From Firmicutes bacterium HGW-Firmicutes-7 (GTDB lineage Bacteria > Bacillota > Clostridia > Lachnospirales > Vallitaleaceae): a stretch of 64,000 nt of DNA. Under the pieces are notes generated by a model. That model saw only the letters and a program-made list of their open reading frames with translations, ran no database searches and was not told where the DNA came from. This document shows positions 53,930 to 60,613 of this stretch, one piece after another. The number at the start of each line of letters is the position of its first letter. The first letter of the stretch is position 1. The DNA is taken from assembly GCA_002841375.1 (NCBI GenBank), contig PGZO01000023.1, forward strand, positions 1 through 64,000, written 5' to 3'. Position numbers and translations under genes: made by a program.

Positions 53930-53988
53930 TTTACAATAATTCTAGCGAGTGATATAATCATATTGAACAAAAAAATAGTTACTGAACA
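53930..53988 (+). promoter_or_regulatory. Promoter and possible operator repeats before the SorC-type gene
   Basis: TTTACA (53930-53935), 17-base spacer, TATAAT (53953-53958). TGAACAAAA occurs twice, at 53964 and 53983, 19 bases apart, in the leader. TGAAC-type half-sites are common for SorC-family regulators. Confidence 0.6.
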
Positions 53989-54012: not shown

Positions 54013-54951
54013 ATGAGTATTGTTGACAATAAGAGAATCAGCATAAAGGTCTGTAAATTATATTATGAAGAAGATCTTAGTCAAAAAGAGATCGCAATAG
54101 AGCTAGGTATCTCACGACCTCAAATTAGCAGAATACTGTCGAATGCAAAAAAGAATAACACTGTATCTATAAAAGTAAATAATATATTTGAAAAAGAGAC
54201 TGAATTGGAAGAAAAATTAAAACAAAAATATCCTGTCCATGATGTTTGGGTATTGAAAACGCAAGGGCAGACAGATGAAGTAATATATGAGGAAATGGGA
54301 AAACAAGTAAGTGATCAACTAGATGCATACATCCCCAATAATAGTTTAGTAGGTGTAATGAGTGGGAAAACTATAAGTTCCTTTGTTAACGGCTTAAATT
54401 GCTTTGAAAAGAAAGCACTTGAATTTATACCACTTATTGGCGGTATTGGATCAGATGGTGCAGATTGGCATGCTAATGTCATTGCAAAGAATTTTGCGGA
54501 TAAAATAAATGGGAAATATTATATTTTGAATGCGCCTGTTATTATGAAAACACAACACGCAAAAGAATCATTAATGAATGAGCCTCACATAGGTAATATT
54601 TTAGAGAAGGCAAAAAAGTGCAATGTTGCGATAGTGGGCATAGGACAAGTAGACAACAACTCTACGAATGTAAAAGCTGGAGCATTATCACCTGAAGATA
54701 TGGAACAATTAAACAAGATTGGAGCAAAAGCATCTATTTGTTGCTCATATTTAGATGGTAAGGGAAAGACAATTGATTCTGAAATTTCTCAACGGTCTAT
54801 TGGTGTTACAATCGAGGAGTTAAAAAGATGCAAGAAGATTGTCGCAATTGCTATAGGAAACAGTAAAACTGAAGCTATTAAATCGGTTCTATTAGGCGGT
54901 TTTGTTGATGTATTAATTACAAATATCGAGACTGCTAATAAAATAATATAA
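54013..54951 (+). CDS. SorC/DeoR-type sugar-binding transcriptional regulator
   Basis: A 312-residue SorC-family regulator with an N-terminal helix-turn-helix (DLSQKEIAIELGISRPQISR) and a large effector domain of the NagB-like fold, with VGVMSGKTISSFV, LIGGIGSDGADWHAN and the C-terminal AIAIGNSKTEAIKSVLLGGF. SorC members (SorC, LsrR, CggR) respond to phosphorylated sugars. It is placed just before the transporter and kinase genes, so it likely regulates that operon. The ATG follows AAAGGAG. Confidence 0.88.
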   Translation: MSIVDNKRISIKVCKLYYEEDLSQKEIAIELGISRPQISRILSNAKKNNTVSIKVNNIFEKETELEEKLKQKYPVHDVWVLKTQGQTDEVIYEEMGKQVSDQLDAYIPNNSLVGVMSGKTISSFVNGLNCFEKKALEFIPLIGGIGSDGADWHANVIAKNFADKINGKYYILNAPVIMKTQHAKESLMNEPHIGNILEKAKKCNVAIVGIGQVDNNSTNVKAGALSPEDMEQLNKIGAKASICCSYLDGKGKTIDSEISQRSIGVTIEELKRCKKIVAIAIGNSKTEAIKSVLLGGFVDVLITNIETANKII

Positions 54952-54969: not shown

Positions 54970-55887
54970 ATGAAGAAAGGCATTATGTTAGTGGTTATTT
55001 TATCAATGGTATTTTCTCTTATTGGATGTAGTTCAGGATCAGAAGAAGTAAAAGCAAAACAGGTTTCGATTTTAACACCTTATCTATCATCTGTAACAAC
55101 GAATCAAATGGTAGAAACAATGAAAAAAGGAATTGAAGAAAAAGGTTGGATTGCAAATGTAGTTGATACAAAAGGAGATTTTGCTCAACTTGCAAGCCGA
55201 ATGGAAGATGTTATTTCTTCAAAAACAAATGCGATTGTTATTGTAAGTACAGATCCTAATCAAGTAATAGCCCAAATTGCAAAAGCAGATGAAGAGGGTA
55301 TACCAGTATTTGGGTGCGACAGTGGATTTATTGACGGTATGACACTCAATGCCACCAGTGATAATTCTGTAATGTCAGAAATGATTACACAATATTTATT
55401 TGATGAAATGGGTGGAAAAGGAAAGCTGATTGTGTTATCCCATAGACCACATCCAGGTGTTTTAATGAGAACAGAAAAGCTTGATGAAATGCTTAAGAAT
55501 TATCCAGGTATTGAAGTAATAACGGAACAACATGTTGAAGTGCCAGGACCAATAGAGAACTCTAGAAAAGTGATGGAAAATTTAATACTAGCAAATACAG
55601 AAACAGATTCTATTACAGCGGTTTGGTGTGGATGGGATGAACCAGCGATTGGTGTATCTCAAGCACTAAATGATGCAGGTCGTACTAATGTTATCGTGAC
55701 AGGCATTGATGGAAATAGCCAAGCTGTTGAAATGATCAATTCGGGTAGTACATTAAAGGCTACAGTTTCACAGAACTTCGATGGAATGGCAGAAATTGTT
55801 GTAGGTGAAATGGAAAAAGTATTTAATGGTGAAACAATAGATAAGGGTGACCGTTATGCGCCTGCGACATTAATTACTAAAAAATAG
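54970..55887 (+). CDS. Sugar ABC transporter substrate-binding lipoprotein (RbsB type)
   Basis: A 305-residue lipoprotein with lipobox LIGC (Cys17). The periplasmic-binding fold (VSILTPYLSSVTTNQMVETM, AIVIVSTDPNQVIAQI, VFGCDSGF and TGIDGNSQAVEMI) is that of ribose or allose-binding proteins, shorter than ChvE/XylF. It binds a sugar and hands it to the ATPase and permease encoded next. It starts 18 bases after the regulator. Confidence 0.85.
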   Translation: MKKGIMLVVILSMVFSLIGCSSGSEEVKAKQVSILTPYLSSVTTNQMVETMKKGIEEKGWIANVVDTKGDFAQLASRMEDVISSKTNAIVIVSTDPNQVIAQIAKADEEGIPVFGCDSGFIDGMTLNATSDNSVMSEMITQYLFDEMGGKGKLIVLSHRPHPGVLMRTEKLDEMLKNYPGIEVITEQHVEVPGPIENSRKVMENLILANTETDSITAVWCGWDEPAIGVSQALNDAGRTNVIVTGIDGNSQAVEMINSGSTLKATVSQNFDGMAEIVVGEMEKVFNGETIDKGDRYAPATLITKK

Positions 55888-55916: not shown

Positions 55917-57395
55917 ATGTTGTTAAGGACAGATGGCGTTACAAAGAAATTTGGAAGTATGTATGCATTAAAAGATATAGATATTAACATTGAGGCAGGC
56001 GAGATCCATGGACTTGTTGGAGAAAACGGTGCAGGGAAATCAACGTTAATTAAAATACTGACAGGCGTTTATCACCTTGATGAAGGTAGTATGATATGGG
56101 AAGGTAAAAAAGTTGAATTATCACACCCTATGGATAGCCATCGATTAGGTATTAACGTCATTCATCAAGATCGGAACCTTATCCCATCCTTTAATGGAAT
56201 TGAAAACATTTATTTAGGGCTGGATTATGAAAAAACAGGTATTCGTGTAAATTGGGGTAAAATGCAAGAAAAAGTTGAGAAATTAATAGAGGAACTGGGC
56301 ATTTCAGTTTCTCTAAATAAGCCAGCTAGTTCGTTAACACCTCCTGAAAAAACACTTTTAGAAATGATAAGAGCAATGATGACGGAATGCAAGTTATTAA
56401 TTTTAGATGAGCCAACGGCTTCTCTTACAGATAAAGAGGCACAAATCCTATTTAAGACAGTTCTTCGATTAAAAAATAAGGGGACATCCATTTTATATGT
56501 TACACATCGATTAGACGAAATATTTCAACTTACAGATCGCATAACCGTCTTTAAGAATGGGCAAAGAGTAAAAACACTTGAAACAAAACATACAGATAAG
56601 GATGGTCTGATCTCTTTAATGACGGACAATTGGACTAGGGAAAATTATGACAACAAGCGAGATAAGGGAGAGGTCGTCCTTTCTGTTAGAAATATTACCT
56701 CGCGAGATCAGAAAGTAAAAGATGCAAGCTTCGAAGTCCATGCAGGAGAAATTTTAGGATTATTTGGACTCGGTGGAAGTGGTCGAACTGAGTTGTTGGA
56801 GTGTATATATGGTCTTAGATCAATGGAAAGAGGATGCATTCAAATTGACCAACAAGAGGTCAAAATAAGCAATCCAGCCCAAGCAATCAAAAGTGGGATG
56901 GTATTAATTTGTGAAGACCGTCGTGGTATGGCATTGGTTGGGGGCTTATCCGTAAAGGATAATATTCTTCTTTCTAATATTGATCAATATGCTCAAAAGG
57001 GCATTTTAAATGAGAAAAGGGAAATTGATGATGCCAATGCAAAGATTAAGTCTTTGTCAATTAAAACAACTGGTTATAAGCAACCTGTTATAGAGTTGTC
57101 AGGCGGTAATCAACAAAAAGTCGTATTTGCAAAAGCCTTGATGACAAACCCTAAAATATTTTTATGTGATGAACCAACTCAAGCAGTGGATGTGAAAACA
57201 AGGGCAGAAATTCACAAGTTATTAGAAGAGAAAGCCAAAGAAGGAAATGCTGTTGTCTTTGTATCCTCAGATTTAAAAGAAGTATTAGAGATCGCTGATT
57301 CTGTTCAAATTATAGCAGCTGGACGGACACGGGATTGTTTGGTTAATCACAATTTAGCAGGAGAGAAAGTATTGCAATGCTGTTATGTAGAATAA
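55917..57395 (+). CDS. Sugar ABC transporter ATPase, two nucleotide-binding domains (RbsA type)
   Basis: A 492-residue twin-ABC protein of the RbsA group. Motifs: GENGAGKST (35-43), [11 protein letters not shown] in the first domain; [27 protein letters not shown] and LCDEPTQAVD in the second domain. It is shorter than those at 18007 and 45445, consistent with RbsA. The last third of the protein lacks oddities. The ATG at 55917 follows GAAGGGAG. Confidence 0.9.
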   Translation: MLLRTDGVTKKFGSMYALKDIDINIEAGEIHGLVGENGAGKSTLIKILTGVYHLDEGSMIWEGKKVELSHPMDSHRLGINVIHQDRNLIPSFNGIENIYLGLDYEKTGIRVNWGKMQEKVEKLIEELGISVSLNKPASSLTPPEKTLLEMIRAMMTECKLLILDEPTASLTDKEAQILFKTVLRLKNKGTSILYVTHRLDEIFQLTDRITVFKNGQRVKTLETKHTDKDGLISLMTDNWTRENYDNKRDKGEVVLSVRNITSRDQKVKDASFEVHAGEILGLFGLGGSGRTELLECIYGLRSMERGCIQIDQQEVKISNPAQAIKSGMVLICEDRRGMALVGGLSVKDNILLSNIDQYAQKGILNEKREIDDANAKIKSLSIKTTGYKQPVIELSGGNQQKVVFAKALMTNPKIFLCDEPTQAVDVKTRAEIHKLLEEKAKEGNAVVFVSSDLKEVLEIADSVQIIAAGRTRDCLVNHNLAGEKVLQCCYVE

Positions 57396-57416: not shown

Positions 57417-58370
57417 ATGAACAAACGAATAAATGCAACTAACGTATTCCGCACATATGGCACAATTATTGCAGGGGTGATAATCATTATTATGTTTAGC
57501 ATTCTTCGCCCACAATCATTTGCCACCATATCTAATGCGATTAATATCACTCGACAGATATCGCTGCTGGTAGTTATATCTATTGGGGCCACGCTCATTA
57601 TGGCGGTGGAAGAATTTGATCTATCAATAGGAGCAATGGCAAGTTTAGGAGGTGTTTTAGCGGCCAAACTATCTGTTAATGGCATACCCGTAATCTTTGC
57701 TTTATTAATTGCATTGGCTATCTGTTTTATTATAGGATATGTTAATGGATATATTGTTACAAAATTTAAGGTGCTTTCATTTATTACAACATTGGCGATG
57801 GGGACAATTATTGGTGGTTTCACTTTTTGGTTTACAGGCGGCTCTACGGTGTTTGAGAACATACCAAAAGGTTTTACCTTTCTAGGGACAAAAACGGTTT
57901 TAAGTTTACCATTGCTATCCATTATTATGTTGCTTTTAACGATCCTATTTTGGTTTATCATGAGGCATACGGTTTTTGGTAGAAAATTATATGCAATAGG
58001 TGGAAATGAAGTAGCTGCTCAAGTATCAGGACTTAATGTTAAAATGAATAAAAATCTAGCATTTGCTCTATGCGGTTCAATGGCAGCATTAACTGGGATG
58101 CTAACTGCATCAAGACTTGGATCGGCACATCCAACGGGTGGTGATGGATTTTTCTTATCGGCATATGCAGCAGTTTTCTTAGGAAGAACAGTTTTTAAAG
58201 AAGGTGTACCGACGATTTGGGGTACTTTTATCGGGGCTGCCATTCTAGGTATTTTAGCAAATGGACTAACGATATTACAAATACCAACATTTATGCAAGA
58301 CATACTCACGGGTATGATTATTATCACAGCAGTTGTGGTACAAAAAATGGGTGCAAATAAACATGAATAA
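57417..58370 (+). CDS. Sugar ABC transporter permease (RbsC type)
   Basis: A 317-residue membrane protein with about nine helices and motifs typical of RbsC: GATLIMAVEEFDLSIGAMASLGG, KVLSFITTLAMGTIIGG, AQVSGLNVK and the C-terminal DGFFLSAYAAVFLGRTVFKEG. It is shorter than the GguB-type permeases at 19545 and 46983 because it lacks their central insertion. Its end overlaps the start of the TrpA-like gene by eight bases. Confidence 0.9.
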   Translation: MNKRINATNVFRTYGTIIAGVIIIIMFSILRPQSFATISNAINITRQISLLVVISIGATLIMAVEEFDLSIGAMASLGGVLAAKLSVNGIPVIFALLIALAICFIIGYVNGYIVTKFKVLSFITTLAMGTIIGGFTFWFTGGSTVFENIPKGFTFLGTKTVLSLPLLSIIMLLLTILFWFIMRHTVFGRKLYAIGGNEVAAQVSGLNVKMNKNLAFALCGSMAALTGMLTASRLGSAHPTGGDGFFLSAYAAVFLGRTVFKEGVPTIWGTFIGAAILGILANGLTILQIPTFMQDILTGMIIITAVVVQKMGANKHE

Positions 58371-59160
58371 AATTAATTCGACGTTAAATGCAAGTACTTT
58401 TCAAAAGAATACGGGAATGCTAGTCGGCTATTTAGTCGCAGGTTATCCAGAAAAACATGATTTTTTTGATATTATTAAAAAGTGTGAAGAAAGTGGAATG
58501 GATATATTTGAAATTGGTTTTCCTAGTAATGATCCATATGGTGATGGTGAAATAATCCAAAAAGCACATAAAATGGTAGACAGAGAAGAAGTAAGACAAA
58601 TAGAGTATTGGAGGCTAATTAGAAAGACAACATCAAAACCTATTTGGATTATGGCTTACAAAGAGGACTTTATAGATACAAAAGTATACTTAAACTTGGC
58701 TAAAGAACATTTGATGGATGCTATCGTGATACCTAATTGCAGTCAGCAAGAGAGACAAGTGATTGGAAAAGAGTTAGCGCCATATAAGGTTGATGTATTA
58801 GGTTTTGTAAATCCAACGATGGATAAAAAAGAATGGGAAGAATGTTTTCTTCAATTTTCATTGGTTTACTTACAGCTATATAGCGGTTTAAGTGGAATGA
58901 ATGTGGAATCGGAACAATATGAAGAACTCCTTCATGAAGCGCTTCAACATGAGGATGTAAAGCCATTTGCAGGCTTTGGGATAAAAACACCTGATAGAGC
59001 AAAAGCGCTTATTAAAAAGGGCTTTACAGGTGCCATTGTTGGAACGGCAATGATTAAGCAATTAAATTATTCAGCAGAGCAGTTGTATAATTATGTTTCA
59101 GAAATGAAAAAAGGTGTATTAGGGCAAGGTGATGAAGATGAAGTATGTAGCGAGTTTTGA
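58363..59160 (+). CDS. Tryptophan synthase alpha-chain-like (TrpA-like) TIM-barrel protein
   Basis: A 265-residue TrpA homologue. The catalytic strand reads DIFEIGFPSNDPYGDGEIIQ: Glu50 and Asp61 correspond to the catalytic Glu49 and Asp60 of TrpA. The phosphate-binding end is also recognisable (FAGFGIKTPDRAKALI and GAIVGTAMI). Real TrpA cleaves indole-3-glycerol phosphate beside TrpB; here no trpB or other trp gene is present, and the gene lies in a sugar ABC transporter/FGGY kinase operon. It is therefore probably a retro-aldolase on a phosphorylated sugar. ATG 58363 lies inside the permease gene, and the 3' end overlaps the kinase gene. Confidence 0.82.
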   Translation: MNKINSTLNASTFQKNTGMLVGYLVAGYPEKHDFFDIIKKCEESGMDIFEIGFPSNDPYGDGEIIQKAHKMVDREEVRQIEYWRLIRKTTSKPIWIMAYKEDFIDTKVYLNLAKEHLMDAIVIPNCSQQERQVIGKELAPYKVDVLGFVNPTMDKKEWEECFLQFSLVYLQLYSGLSGMNVESEQYEELLHEALQHEDVKPFAGFGIKTPDRAKALIKKGFTGAIVGTAMIKQLNYSAEQLYNYVSEMKKGVLGQGDEDEVCSEF

Positions 59161-60613
59161 TATTGGTACGACCGCAACCAAAGGGCTTCTCGTGTCAATT
59201 GATAAACAGGTGATTTGTTCAAAGAGCATAGCTTATAAAACGATTTATAAGGGTGACAAAAAAGAACAGGAACCGGAGGATTGGTATAGGGCTTTTTGCG
59301 AAATTTCTAAGACTTTTTTTGAAAGAGGTTATTTAGCTCAAGATATTATAGGCATTGTCATGAGTGGACAAATGCAAGATCTAATTTGTGTTGACCATTT
59401 AGGACAGCCGCTTGGACCTGCCATCTTATATTCGGATGCAAGAGCCATTCATGAAGCAAAGGAAATCACAAAGAGTATAGGGGAGGACGTCTTATACACA
59501 AGTACTGGAAATAAGCTTGATGGATCAATTCCTTTTGCTAAGCTGTTGTGGGTTATGAGAAATGAGCCTAGCAAATATAATGAAATTTATAAAATATTAA
59601 TAAGTTCAAAAGACTATTGTGTTTCAAAGCTAACCGATCAGTACATAACGGATATGACATCAGCAGCGACCTCTGGACTAATGGACATCCAAGCCAAGAC
59701 CTGGAATAAGATATGGATGAAAAATATGGATTTGGATCCTCAAATACTTCCAGAGCTCAAATATTCCCAAGAATGTGTTGGAGAGGTAACCAAGCGTGCG
59801 TCTATAGAAACGGGATACAATGAAGGCACGAAAGTTTACGCTGGAACCGGTGATGCAGGTGCAACGACTTTAGCCAGTGGTATTGCAAATGCAGGAGAAT
59901 ATAATATTAATATTGGTACATCAGGATGGATTGCGGGTATATCTAAAGATGTTTTACTGAAAGAAAATGTATTTAATTTAGCAGCGATGCAAAAAGATTT
60001 CTTTATCAATGTTATACCTTTTTTAAATGCTGGAGGGGTACACAAATGGATTACTTCAGTATTAGCACCGGAAGATCAAAGTGATCCCTATGCCTATATT
60101 AATTTATTGTTAAATGAGAGTGAAAGTGGTAGCCATGATTTAATGTTTTTACCCTATCTTTCAGGAGAAAGATTTCCAGTTCTTGACGATAAGGCGAAAG
60201 GGTGCTATATCGGAATAACGCCTGAAACAACAAAGAATGATATGGTCAGAGCATGTTTAGAAGCAGTTGCTTTTTCTATAAGGCAAGGATTAGAAGTGAT
60301 TGGTGGAAAAGTGGATAAAATAACACTGATTGGTGGAGGCGCAAAAGTTCAGTTATGGTGTCAAATATTTGCAGATGTATTTGCAAAAACCATATATGTT
60401 TCAGAGGATACAGAATTTATGCCATCCATCGCAATTACAGCCGCAGTTTTCATTAACCAGGGGCTAGAAAAAGACTACAGCAGCTTTATAGATTCATTTT
60501 TGAGTTCAAATAGTTTTACACTGTACCACCCTGTTCAGGGTGATGCAGAAAGATTAAATAAAAAATACAAAAAATATATTGAAATATATCCGGCTGTAAA
60601 GAATTTGTTTTGA
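59138..60613 (+). CDS. FGGY-family carbohydrate kinase
   Basis: A 491-residue FGGY kinase of the xylulokinase/gluconokinase size. The ATPase N-terminus ASFDIGTTATKGLLV, VMSGQMQDLICVD, YSDARA, and the C-terminal half with GTGDAGATTLASG, NIGTSGWIAG, LPYLSGERFP and LIGGGAKVQLWCQIFADV are all in order. Asp in GDAG is the likely catalytic base. Starts at 59129, 59132 and 59138 are possible; AAGGTG before ATG 59138 is best. It overlaps the TrpA-like gene, so the two are co-translated. The sugar phosphorylated is unknown. Confidence 0.87.
   Translation: MKYVASFDIGTTATKGLLVSIDKQVICSKSIAYKTIYKGDKKEQEPEDWYRAFCEISKTFFERGYLAQDIIGIVMSGQMQDLICVDHLGQPLGPAILYSDARAIHEAKEITKSIGEDVLYTSTGNKLDGSIPFAKLLWVMRNEPSKYNEIYKILISSKDYCVSKLTDQYITDMTSAATSGLMDIQAKTWNKIWMKNMDLDPQILPELKYSQECVGEVTKRASIETGYNEGTKVYAGTGDAGATTLASGIANAGEYNINIGTSGWIAGISKDVLLKENVFNLAAMQKDFFINVIPFLNAGGVHKWITSVLAPEDQSDPYAYINLLLNESESGSHDLMFLPYLSGERFPVLDDKAKGCYIGITPETTKNDMVRACLEAVAFSIRQGLEVIGGKVDKITLIGGGAKVQLWCQIFADVFAKTIYVSEDTEFMPSIAITAAVFINQGLEKDYSSFIDSFLSSNSFTLYHPVQGDAERLNKKYKKYIEIYPAVKNLF

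Follow-up and report, generated by a model that had tools for sequence, protein, structure and literature searches.

A TrpA-like protein in a conserved sugar-import and FGGY-kinase cassette: a proposed catabolic retro-aldol lyase

What might a protein of the TrpA family be doing among genes for sugar import and phosphorylation? The question is raised by a gene at positions 58363-59160 (forward strand) of a 64,000-nucleotide stretch of DNA (contig PGZO01000023.1, positions 1 to 64,000) from Firmicutes bacterium HGW-Firmicutes-7, a member of the Vallitaleaceae; this whole stretch is hereafter called the window. TrpA is a textbook enzyme with, to our knowledge, essentially one job in bacteria. 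We propose that TrpA chemistry has here been recruited for catabolism, with phosphate supplied in two different ways (by an ATP-binding cassette (ABC) importer with an FGGY kinase, or by a phosphotransferase system, PTS), and that, using neither a Schiff-base lysine nor a metal site, the protein would split a phosphorylated carbohydrate, or else a phosphorylated aryl-polyol, with release of glyceraldehyde 3-phosphate, a proposal to which we assign an even chance of being correct. Its observed basis consists of a predicted fold, kept catalytic and phosphate-binding residues, lost residues on the side facing TrpB, a fixed gene cassette, and presence in genomes without the tryptophan (trp) pathway.

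The annotation and layout of the gene are confirmed, and lie far beyond chance. The open reading frame (ORF) encodes 265 amino acids that match the Pfam family Trp_syntA (PF00290) at 114.9 bits (cut-off 27, E 4e-33), and it overlaps both of its neighbours, as the original prediction from this DNA had described: 8 nt are shared with the end of the permease gene (58370), and the frame of the kinase starts inside it (GTG at 59129, or ATG at 59132 or 59138), giving an overlap of 23-32 nt. The AlphaFold 2 model of the protein (predicted local distance difference test score 93.5) has the TrpA TIM-barrel fold, with Salmonella TrpA as its best match in the Protein Data Bank (PDB; 6xnc_A, Z 32.5, root-mean-square deviation 2.0 over 247 residues), and among the matches listed in each fold search all 50 PDB rows are TrpA or BX1. 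Identity to the TrpA sequences compared is 21-29%.

The gene belongs to a cassette whose order (SorC regulator, binding protein, ABC ATPase, permease, TrpA-like protein, FGGY kinase) is the same in all 12 relatives found, 11 of them from an alignment-based scan of named bacterial genomes (in which a single-protein query returned no matches) and one (G628) from 398 genomes of the phylum. All six genes occur in 9 of the 12, two of these with a kinase cut by the contig end, and gene losses are confined to contig ends: where outer genes are absent (L056, L061, L062), the contigs stop. Hosts of the 11 are five Clostridia (including Anaerotruncus massiliensis), one Anaerolineaceae metagenome-assembled genome (MAG), four spirochaete MAGs and one Vallitaleaceae MAG, and the relatives span three phyla (Bacillota, Chloroflexota and Spirochaetota). 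Identity to the window ranges from 39 to 53% for the TrpA-like protein (12 relatives) and from 46 to 77% for the binding protein (nine relatives aligned). Pairwise identities of the TrpA-like protein, the kinase and the binding protein covary (r = 0.90, 0.86 and 0.96) across 8 of the 13 loci (L056 and L057 were removed for their cut kinases, and L061, L062 and L073 have no usable kinase or binding-protein row), as expected for a set inherited as a unit. No flanking gene is common to more than two of the 13 loci (86 flanking ORFs, 0-9 kb per side, tblastn at 1e-5), and we consequently see no seventh gene or enzyme that belongs with the cassette. The cassette is also rare, occurring in 1 of 21 other genomes of the family, 2 of 390 others of the class and 1 of 397 others of the phylum. 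Relatives of the binding protein and kinase were also sought as a way to find another enzyme in the place of the TrpA-like gene. Among the matches listed, with at most five candidates scored per genome, the binding protein was found at 1e-60 in 3 of 391 class genomes (its own and two already known); the kinase at 1e-130 was found in its own genome alone of the 398 phylum genomes, a weak test that missed the known G628 cassette, whose kinase is cut.

Do such proteins form a lineage of their own, as the original prediction suggested checking? A tree was built from 37 TrpA sequences (36 with trpB in the same locus, plus that of E. coli), 12 cassette proteins (the cut L062 protein being omitted), and three proteins of a PTS type and five of a btpA type, both described below. 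Each group occupies one side of a branch, with support of 100/99 for the cassette type, 100/99 for the PTS type, 95/90 for TrpA and 100/100 for the btpA type; the sugar-operon proteins thus form their own clade, apart from all 37 TrpA. When the btpA type is removed, support for the TrpA branch is 98/89, with the cassette rows outside the TrpA group. Support for a union of the cassette and PTS types is 91/75 in the full tree, 91/62 after removal of three long rows, and 98/89 after removal of the btpA type; the two types also have in common a His at E. coli position 68 that none of the 37 TrpA possesses.

Residues were counted in the 13 cassette rows (12 of them full, L062 being cut) against the 37 TrpA, in E. 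coli TrpA numbering. Glu49, Asp60, Tyr102, Tyr175, Gly181 and Gly184 are kept in 13/13 cassette rows, and Gly211, Phe212, Gly213 and Gly234 in 12/12, whereas position 183 is Thr or Ser and Ser235 has become Thr. Both catalytic acids named in the original prediction are therefore present, the window's Glu50 and Asp61 aligning with Glu49 and Asp60 of E. coli, as is the phosphate-binding end (Gly184, Gly213, Gly234, with Thr for Ser235). Position 60 is Asp in 29 and Glu in 8 of the 37 TrpA, and Asp in every cassette row. The side facing TrpB has fared differently. Four residues that we take to be TrpB contacts are largely gone: Asp56 (37/37 TrpA, 3/13 cassette rows), Ala59 (37/37, 2/13), Asn104 (37/37, 0/13) and Pro132 (34/37, 0/13); further losses affect Phe/Tyr54 (kept in 0/13), Ser55 (2/13) and Val182 (1/13). 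These positions (54-56, 59, 104, 132 and 182) lie in or near loops on the TrpB side, and passages of PMC7008512 describe loops L2 and L6 of TrpA as coordinating with TrpB. There are two short deletions, one before position 90 and one at 112-113. The TrpB-contact loop, whose conservation the original prediction named as evidence against itself, has hence lost its TrpB-side residues. These losses, together with the separate clade, speak against a second trpA, whether stray or diverged, with a continuing part in tryptophan synthesis, or a pseudoenzyme partner, which we consider very improbable even though the catalytic acids are intact and the protein narrowly passes the NCBIfam trpA model.

The genomes themselves bear on the same alternative. 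Taking canonical trpA as a PF00290 match above 270 bits and trpB as TIGR00263 (cut-off 392), the window's genome holds an ordinary trpA (288 bits) beside trpB on another contig, its only other PF00290 match. Searches with PF00290 and TIGR00263 found no trp genes on the window's contig, in agreement with the earlier statement that neither trpB nor another trp gene lies near; a scrap of the trpC family (PF00218) on that contig (C20:22181-22447) scores 20.4 bits, under cut-off. Across the 13 cassette genomes, trpC is without a match in 8, canonical trpA in 6 and trpB above cut-off in 5, and all three are absent in five (G628, G811, G812, G815 and G819), which makes tryptophan synthesis an unlikely job for the TrpA-like protein. 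A TrpB-like protein of 156 bits (cut-off 392) does occur in G628 and G812. Completeness is 96% for G628, 99% for G812 (same contig as G354) and 88% for G811 (same contig as G161). Another 5 of the 13, including the window's, hold trpC, trpB and canonical trpA. All 14 control genomes match trpC, trpA and trpB, with trpB over the cut-off in 13. The missing pathway genes, and the fixity of the cassette across phyla, also count against a second trpA. That this gene might be the organism's only trpA, a prospect the original prediction regarded as damaging, does not apply to the window's genome with its separate trpA; yet canonical trpA was not found in 6 of the 13 cassette genomes. Two further observations concern these genomes. 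Anaerotruncus massiliensis (L055, G813) has canonical trpA and trpB and no trpC match, and in one spirochaete MAG, again with no trpC match, a canonical trpB-trpA pair lies directly 5' of the cassette (L059:2462-4517).

The NCBIfam trpA equivalog TIGR00262 (cut-off 102.35) gives 102.5 bits to the window protein, 118.8 to that of L053, 85.3 to L055 and 85.8 to L058, compared with 268.6 for the canonical TrpA of the window's genome. The window protein thus exceeds the cut-off by 0.15 bits and the L053 protein by 16 bits, and automatic naming of the window protein as trpA will mislead.

Relatives of TrpA recur in catabolic settings. In three loci, genes for a PRD/IIA regulator, IIB and a GAT-type IIC precede that of a TrpA-like protein of 233-241 aa; two of these PTS-type loci, G011 (L078) and G007 (L079), come from the window's family, and the third, L023, from a Jeotgalibaca plasmid. 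The PTS genes were identified by Pfam in L079 and, for IIA and IIC, in L023, while those of L078 were read by likeness. A PTS phosphorylates the compound that it imports; no enzyme other than the TrpA-like protein would thus be needed in L079 and L023, just as none would be after the kinase of the window, and the PTS would replace importer and kinase in supplying a phosphorylated substrate. At 1e-30 no PTS type was found in 199 genomes, a sample that held no known positive. A further, short TrpA-like protein, the btpA type, occurs with PfkB, nucleoside phosphorylase, BtpA and iron-containing alcohol dehydrogenase (Fe-ADH) genes in L044 (by Pfam), and L045-L048 are relatives of L044 that form one clade. 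Additional loci with short TrpA-like proteins are G815:C570, G817:C1:348168-349596 and G818:C277:33514-35621; in G815 and G818 a second, weak PF00290 match, perhaps BtpA, is found close to the protein, which in G818 lies ~18 kb from the sugar cassette. TrpA genes on alphaproteobacterial plasmids that looked like orphans were set aside, as they belong to ordinary trpFBA loci or, in Tritonibacter, encode a TrpA of ordinary appearance, the surrounding stretch containing no trpB.

The remaining genes of the window's cassette, all on the forward strand, are those of a SorC/DeoR-type sugar-binding transcriptional regulator (the first cassette gene, 54013-54951; PF04198, 234 bits; present in 9/12 relatives, the other three being cut by the contig start), a substrate-binding lipoprotein (Peripla_BP_4, RbsB-like, 54970-55887; PF13407, 134.5 bits; 11/12), a two-domain sugar ABC transporter ATPase (55917-57395; XylG/AraG/RbsA-like by NCBIfam, under the equivalog cut-offs; 12/12), an RbsC-type permease (57417-58370; PF02653, 131.7 bits; 12/12) and an XylB-like FGGY kinase (59132-60613, taking the second of three possible starts at 59129, 59132 and 59138; PF00370/PF02782; 11/12). 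A sigma-70-like promoter match (TTTACA-17-TATAAT, 53930-53958, forward strand) lies 5' of the regulator, as judged by a pattern scan that returned 25 sites where shuffling leads one to expect 30.2.

Of ten positions that we take to be the ribose contacts of RbsB, four are kept in the binding protein (D89, R141, D215 and Q235); the six others are changed in a near-uniform way in 10/10 cassette binding proteins, which argues for a single common ligand other than ribose. A guess at that ligand from the nearest solved binding proteins was uninformative, since low-scoring, generic proteins of the ribose type head the PDB matches. The idea that the regulator senses deoxyribose 5-phosphate also found no support, Ile being aligned at what is presumably the Schiff-base Lys of B. 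subtilis DeoR. In the kinase, FGGY_N scores 165 bits and FGGY_C 87 bits; the catalytic Asp (equivalent to XylB D233) is present in 11/11 aligned rows, and XylB His78 is replaced by Gln in all 11 (L062 has no kinase, L073 was left out, and two rows are cut by contig ends). With 324 bits against a cut-off of 380.25, the protein falls below the xylulokinase equivalog TIGR01312.

A SorC-type regulator, an ABC importer and an FGGY kinase are likewise found in the E. coli lsr operon, a parallel drawn in the original prediction, and the module could on that account be an lsr variant that handles autoinducer-2 (AI-2). The parallel goes little further: LsrF and LsrG have no tblastn match at 1e-3 in the 13 loci, the kinase is much closer to XylB (324 bits) than to LsrK (120 bits), the cassette has one permease instead of two, and the pocket of the binding protein is unlike that of LsrB. 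We accordingly see only a slim prospect that AI-2 is involved, and the earlier comparison finds no support.

How might the parts work together? We propose that the six genes constitute a self-contained module for uptake and breakdown, in which the TrpA-like protein would cleave the kinase product to D-glyceraldehyde 3-phosphate and a small carbonyl fragment, and we regard the case for and against this as evenly balanced. The ABC importer would take up a polyhydroxylated compound, and the FGGY kinase would phosphorylate the terminal hydroxyl of this compound; the TrpA-like protein, on its own and without TrpB, would then use the acid-base chemistry of TrpA via Glu50 and Asp61 to cleave the C-C bond that lies three carbons away from the phosphate, releasing D-glyceraldehyde 3-phosphate; we infer this order of steps, the bond cleaved, the products and the substrate. 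A ketohexose 6-phosphate, for example, would leave dihydroxyacetone as the accompanying fragment, and the 5-phosphate of an aldopentose or deoxypentose would leave glycolaldehyde or acetaldehyde. TrpA itself cleaves at the same distance from the phosphate, the ring stabilising the carbon that leaves. By chemical reasoning, the candidate carbohydrate substrates that would match are 2-ketohexose 6-phosphates, the 5-phosphates of aldopentoses or 2-deoxypentoses, and 3-deoxy-2-keto acid 6-phosphates. Import, phosphorylation and a TrpA-type retro-aldol step make up the simplest path that uses every part, and the separate clade, the separate trpA, the loss of TrpB-side residues and co-inheritance make cleavage of the kinase product our best guess. 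Also in its favour are the PTS-type relatives and the change of positions 155 and 177 to polar residues. The original prediction of cleavage to a triose phosphate thereby gains partial support.

Several points weigh against such a cleavage. The kinase resembles a xylulokinase, and a pentulose 5-phosphate cannot yield glyceraldehyde 3-phosphate by a retro-aldol reaction. Among the columns invariant in the 12 full cassette rows there is no barrel Lys of a Class I aldolase, nor the His metal ligands of a Class II aldolase, the sole invariant His being that at E. coli position 68 (13/13 cassette rows, 3/3 PTS-type, 0/37 TrpA); with no invariant Lys and one His, the protein, if a plain sugar aldolase, would have to manage with neither Schiff base nor metal triad, which would be unusual. 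The indole pocket keeps a hydrophobic, TrpA-like lining, which one would hardly expect with a purely polar leaving group. L078 has an acetamidase/formamidase-like gene (PF03069, L078:6466-7350) 3' of its PTS-type TrpA-like gene and in the same orientation, and another enzyme may therefore act there besides the TrpA-like protein. Moreover, the grouping of the cassette and PTS types may be aided by long branches, as the tree program warned, with support of 91/62 once three long rows are removed.

The state of the pocket raises a further alternative, in which an imported aryl- or indolyl-glycerol is phosphorylated and the TrpA-like protein frees the ring together with glyceraldehyde 3-phosphate. 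At positions 22, 100, 127, 129, 212 and 232 of the cassette rows the hydrophobic lining does not leave the range seen in TrpA, and since most of the lining is kept, an aromatic leaving group is possible. Asp60, present in 13/13 rows, is proposed in PMC11574760 to take the indole N-H proton in TrpA, and Phe212 (12/12) stacks on indole according to PMC6608616; the canonical trpB-trpA pair directly 5' of the cassette in L059, in a genome without a trpC match, fits the same idea. Against it, four pocket and strand positions have diverged across the cassette type: 153 is Phe in 13/13 (4/37 TrpA) and 178 is Leu in 13/13 (0/37), while 177 has turned from Val to Gln in 13/13 (0/37) and 155 from Ala/Thr to Asn in 11/13 (0/37), the polar side chains at 177 and 155 probably pointing inward, judging from strand alternation. 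A conserved indole pocket had been named by the original prediction as evidence against itself, and is borne out for the lining but not for these four positions. The binding protein, moreover, keeps four sugar-contact residues of RbsB, and the PTS type suits a sugar more than an arylglycerol. We therefore hold an aromatic leaving group to be unlikely, if worth retaining.

Plasmid loci with related importers bear partly on this alternative. At 1e-30, relatives of the binding protein occur in 12 plasmid records, 7 of which were inspected for an enzyme replacing the TrpA-like gene. Nitratireductor plasmids (two records; L088:9027-17376) carry a close importer (binding protein 49% and permease 48% identical to the cassette) beside canonical trpBA and a LysE-type exporter, a proximity that favours an aromatic substrate; however, their FGGY kinase is a different one (28%, not an orthologue), and their TrpA is ordinary (73% to Rhizobium). 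Four other records (Tritonibacter, two Rhizobium and Shinella; L092-L095) contain acetoin-dehydrogenase-like genes, in an operon of SorC regulator, binding protein (32-38%), ABC genes, acetoin-dehydrogenase-like E1 alpha and E1 beta, a carboxymuconolactone decarboxylase-like protein and FGGY kinase, with E2 annotated in three of the four; as a guess, this operon may break down a phosphorylated 1-deoxyketose. The R. grahamii record has amidohydrolases and a gamma-glutamyltranspeptidase. None of the seven loci settles the substrate of the cassette.

A different use of the acid pair is also conceivable: as a sugar-phosphate isomerase or epimerase, the TrpA-like protein would shift protons and feed the pentose phosphate pathway, with no cleavage. 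TIM barrels of the TrpA kind include the isomerases TrpF and HisA, the kinase is closest to xylulokinase, and the protein has a weak His_biosynth likeness (19.4 bits, under cut-off). However, Glu49, Asp60, Tyr175, the loop-6 motif G-x-(T/S)-G and the G-F-G and G-(S/T) phosphate sites are all kept, a set that serves retro-aldol cleavage where it has been studied, and the listed fold matches are all TrpA or BX1. An isomerase seems to us slightly less probable still than an aromatic leaving group.

Cleavage of a sugar phosphate by a TrpA-type barrel, which remains our preferred reading, would set the cassette apart from the systems it resembles. With TrpA the protein shares the TIM barrel (Z 32.5), the Glu49/Asp60 pair, Tyr175 and the phosphate-binding Gly184, Gly213 and Gly234; unlike TrpA, it has no trpB partner, has lost TrpB-side residues, has shorter loops, forms its own clade, sits in an import and kinase operon, and occurs in trp-less genomes. 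BX1, which is among the PDB matches by sequence as well as fold, is a TrpA-family protein proposed to act without TrpB, and is given as 63% identical to maize TrpA in passages of PMC11574760, whereas the window protein reaches 21-29% with the TrpA compared and is tied to a kinase. Sugar operons with an FGGY kinase and an aldolase, such as that of the rhamnulose pathway, show the sequence of import, ketose kinase and triose-phosphate aldolase that we propose for the cassette. In the rhamnulose pathway the aldolase is a zinc enzyme of another fold, whereas the cassette has a TrpA-type barrel in the aldolase's place. RhaB and RhaD are named in PMC3245297. Among the open PubMed Central (PMC) papers listed, none is concerned, by its title and abstract opening, with a member of the TrpA family encoded in a sugar operon; preprints and subscription journals lay outside that search. 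The fold and probable chemistry are known, and the setting, the clade and the independence of TrpB and the trp pathway are undescribed in the open PMC literature searched.

If the proposal is true, it would represent a type of aldolase, and a route of entry to glycolysis, not described before. A conserved catabolic relative of TrpA would offer a new acid-base aldolase to study and to apply, and an example from nature of an allosteric subunit that has become independent of its partner. There is also a risk for annotation: given that TIGR00262 accepts the proteins of the window and of L053, genomes without tryptophan synthesis may be credited with trpA.

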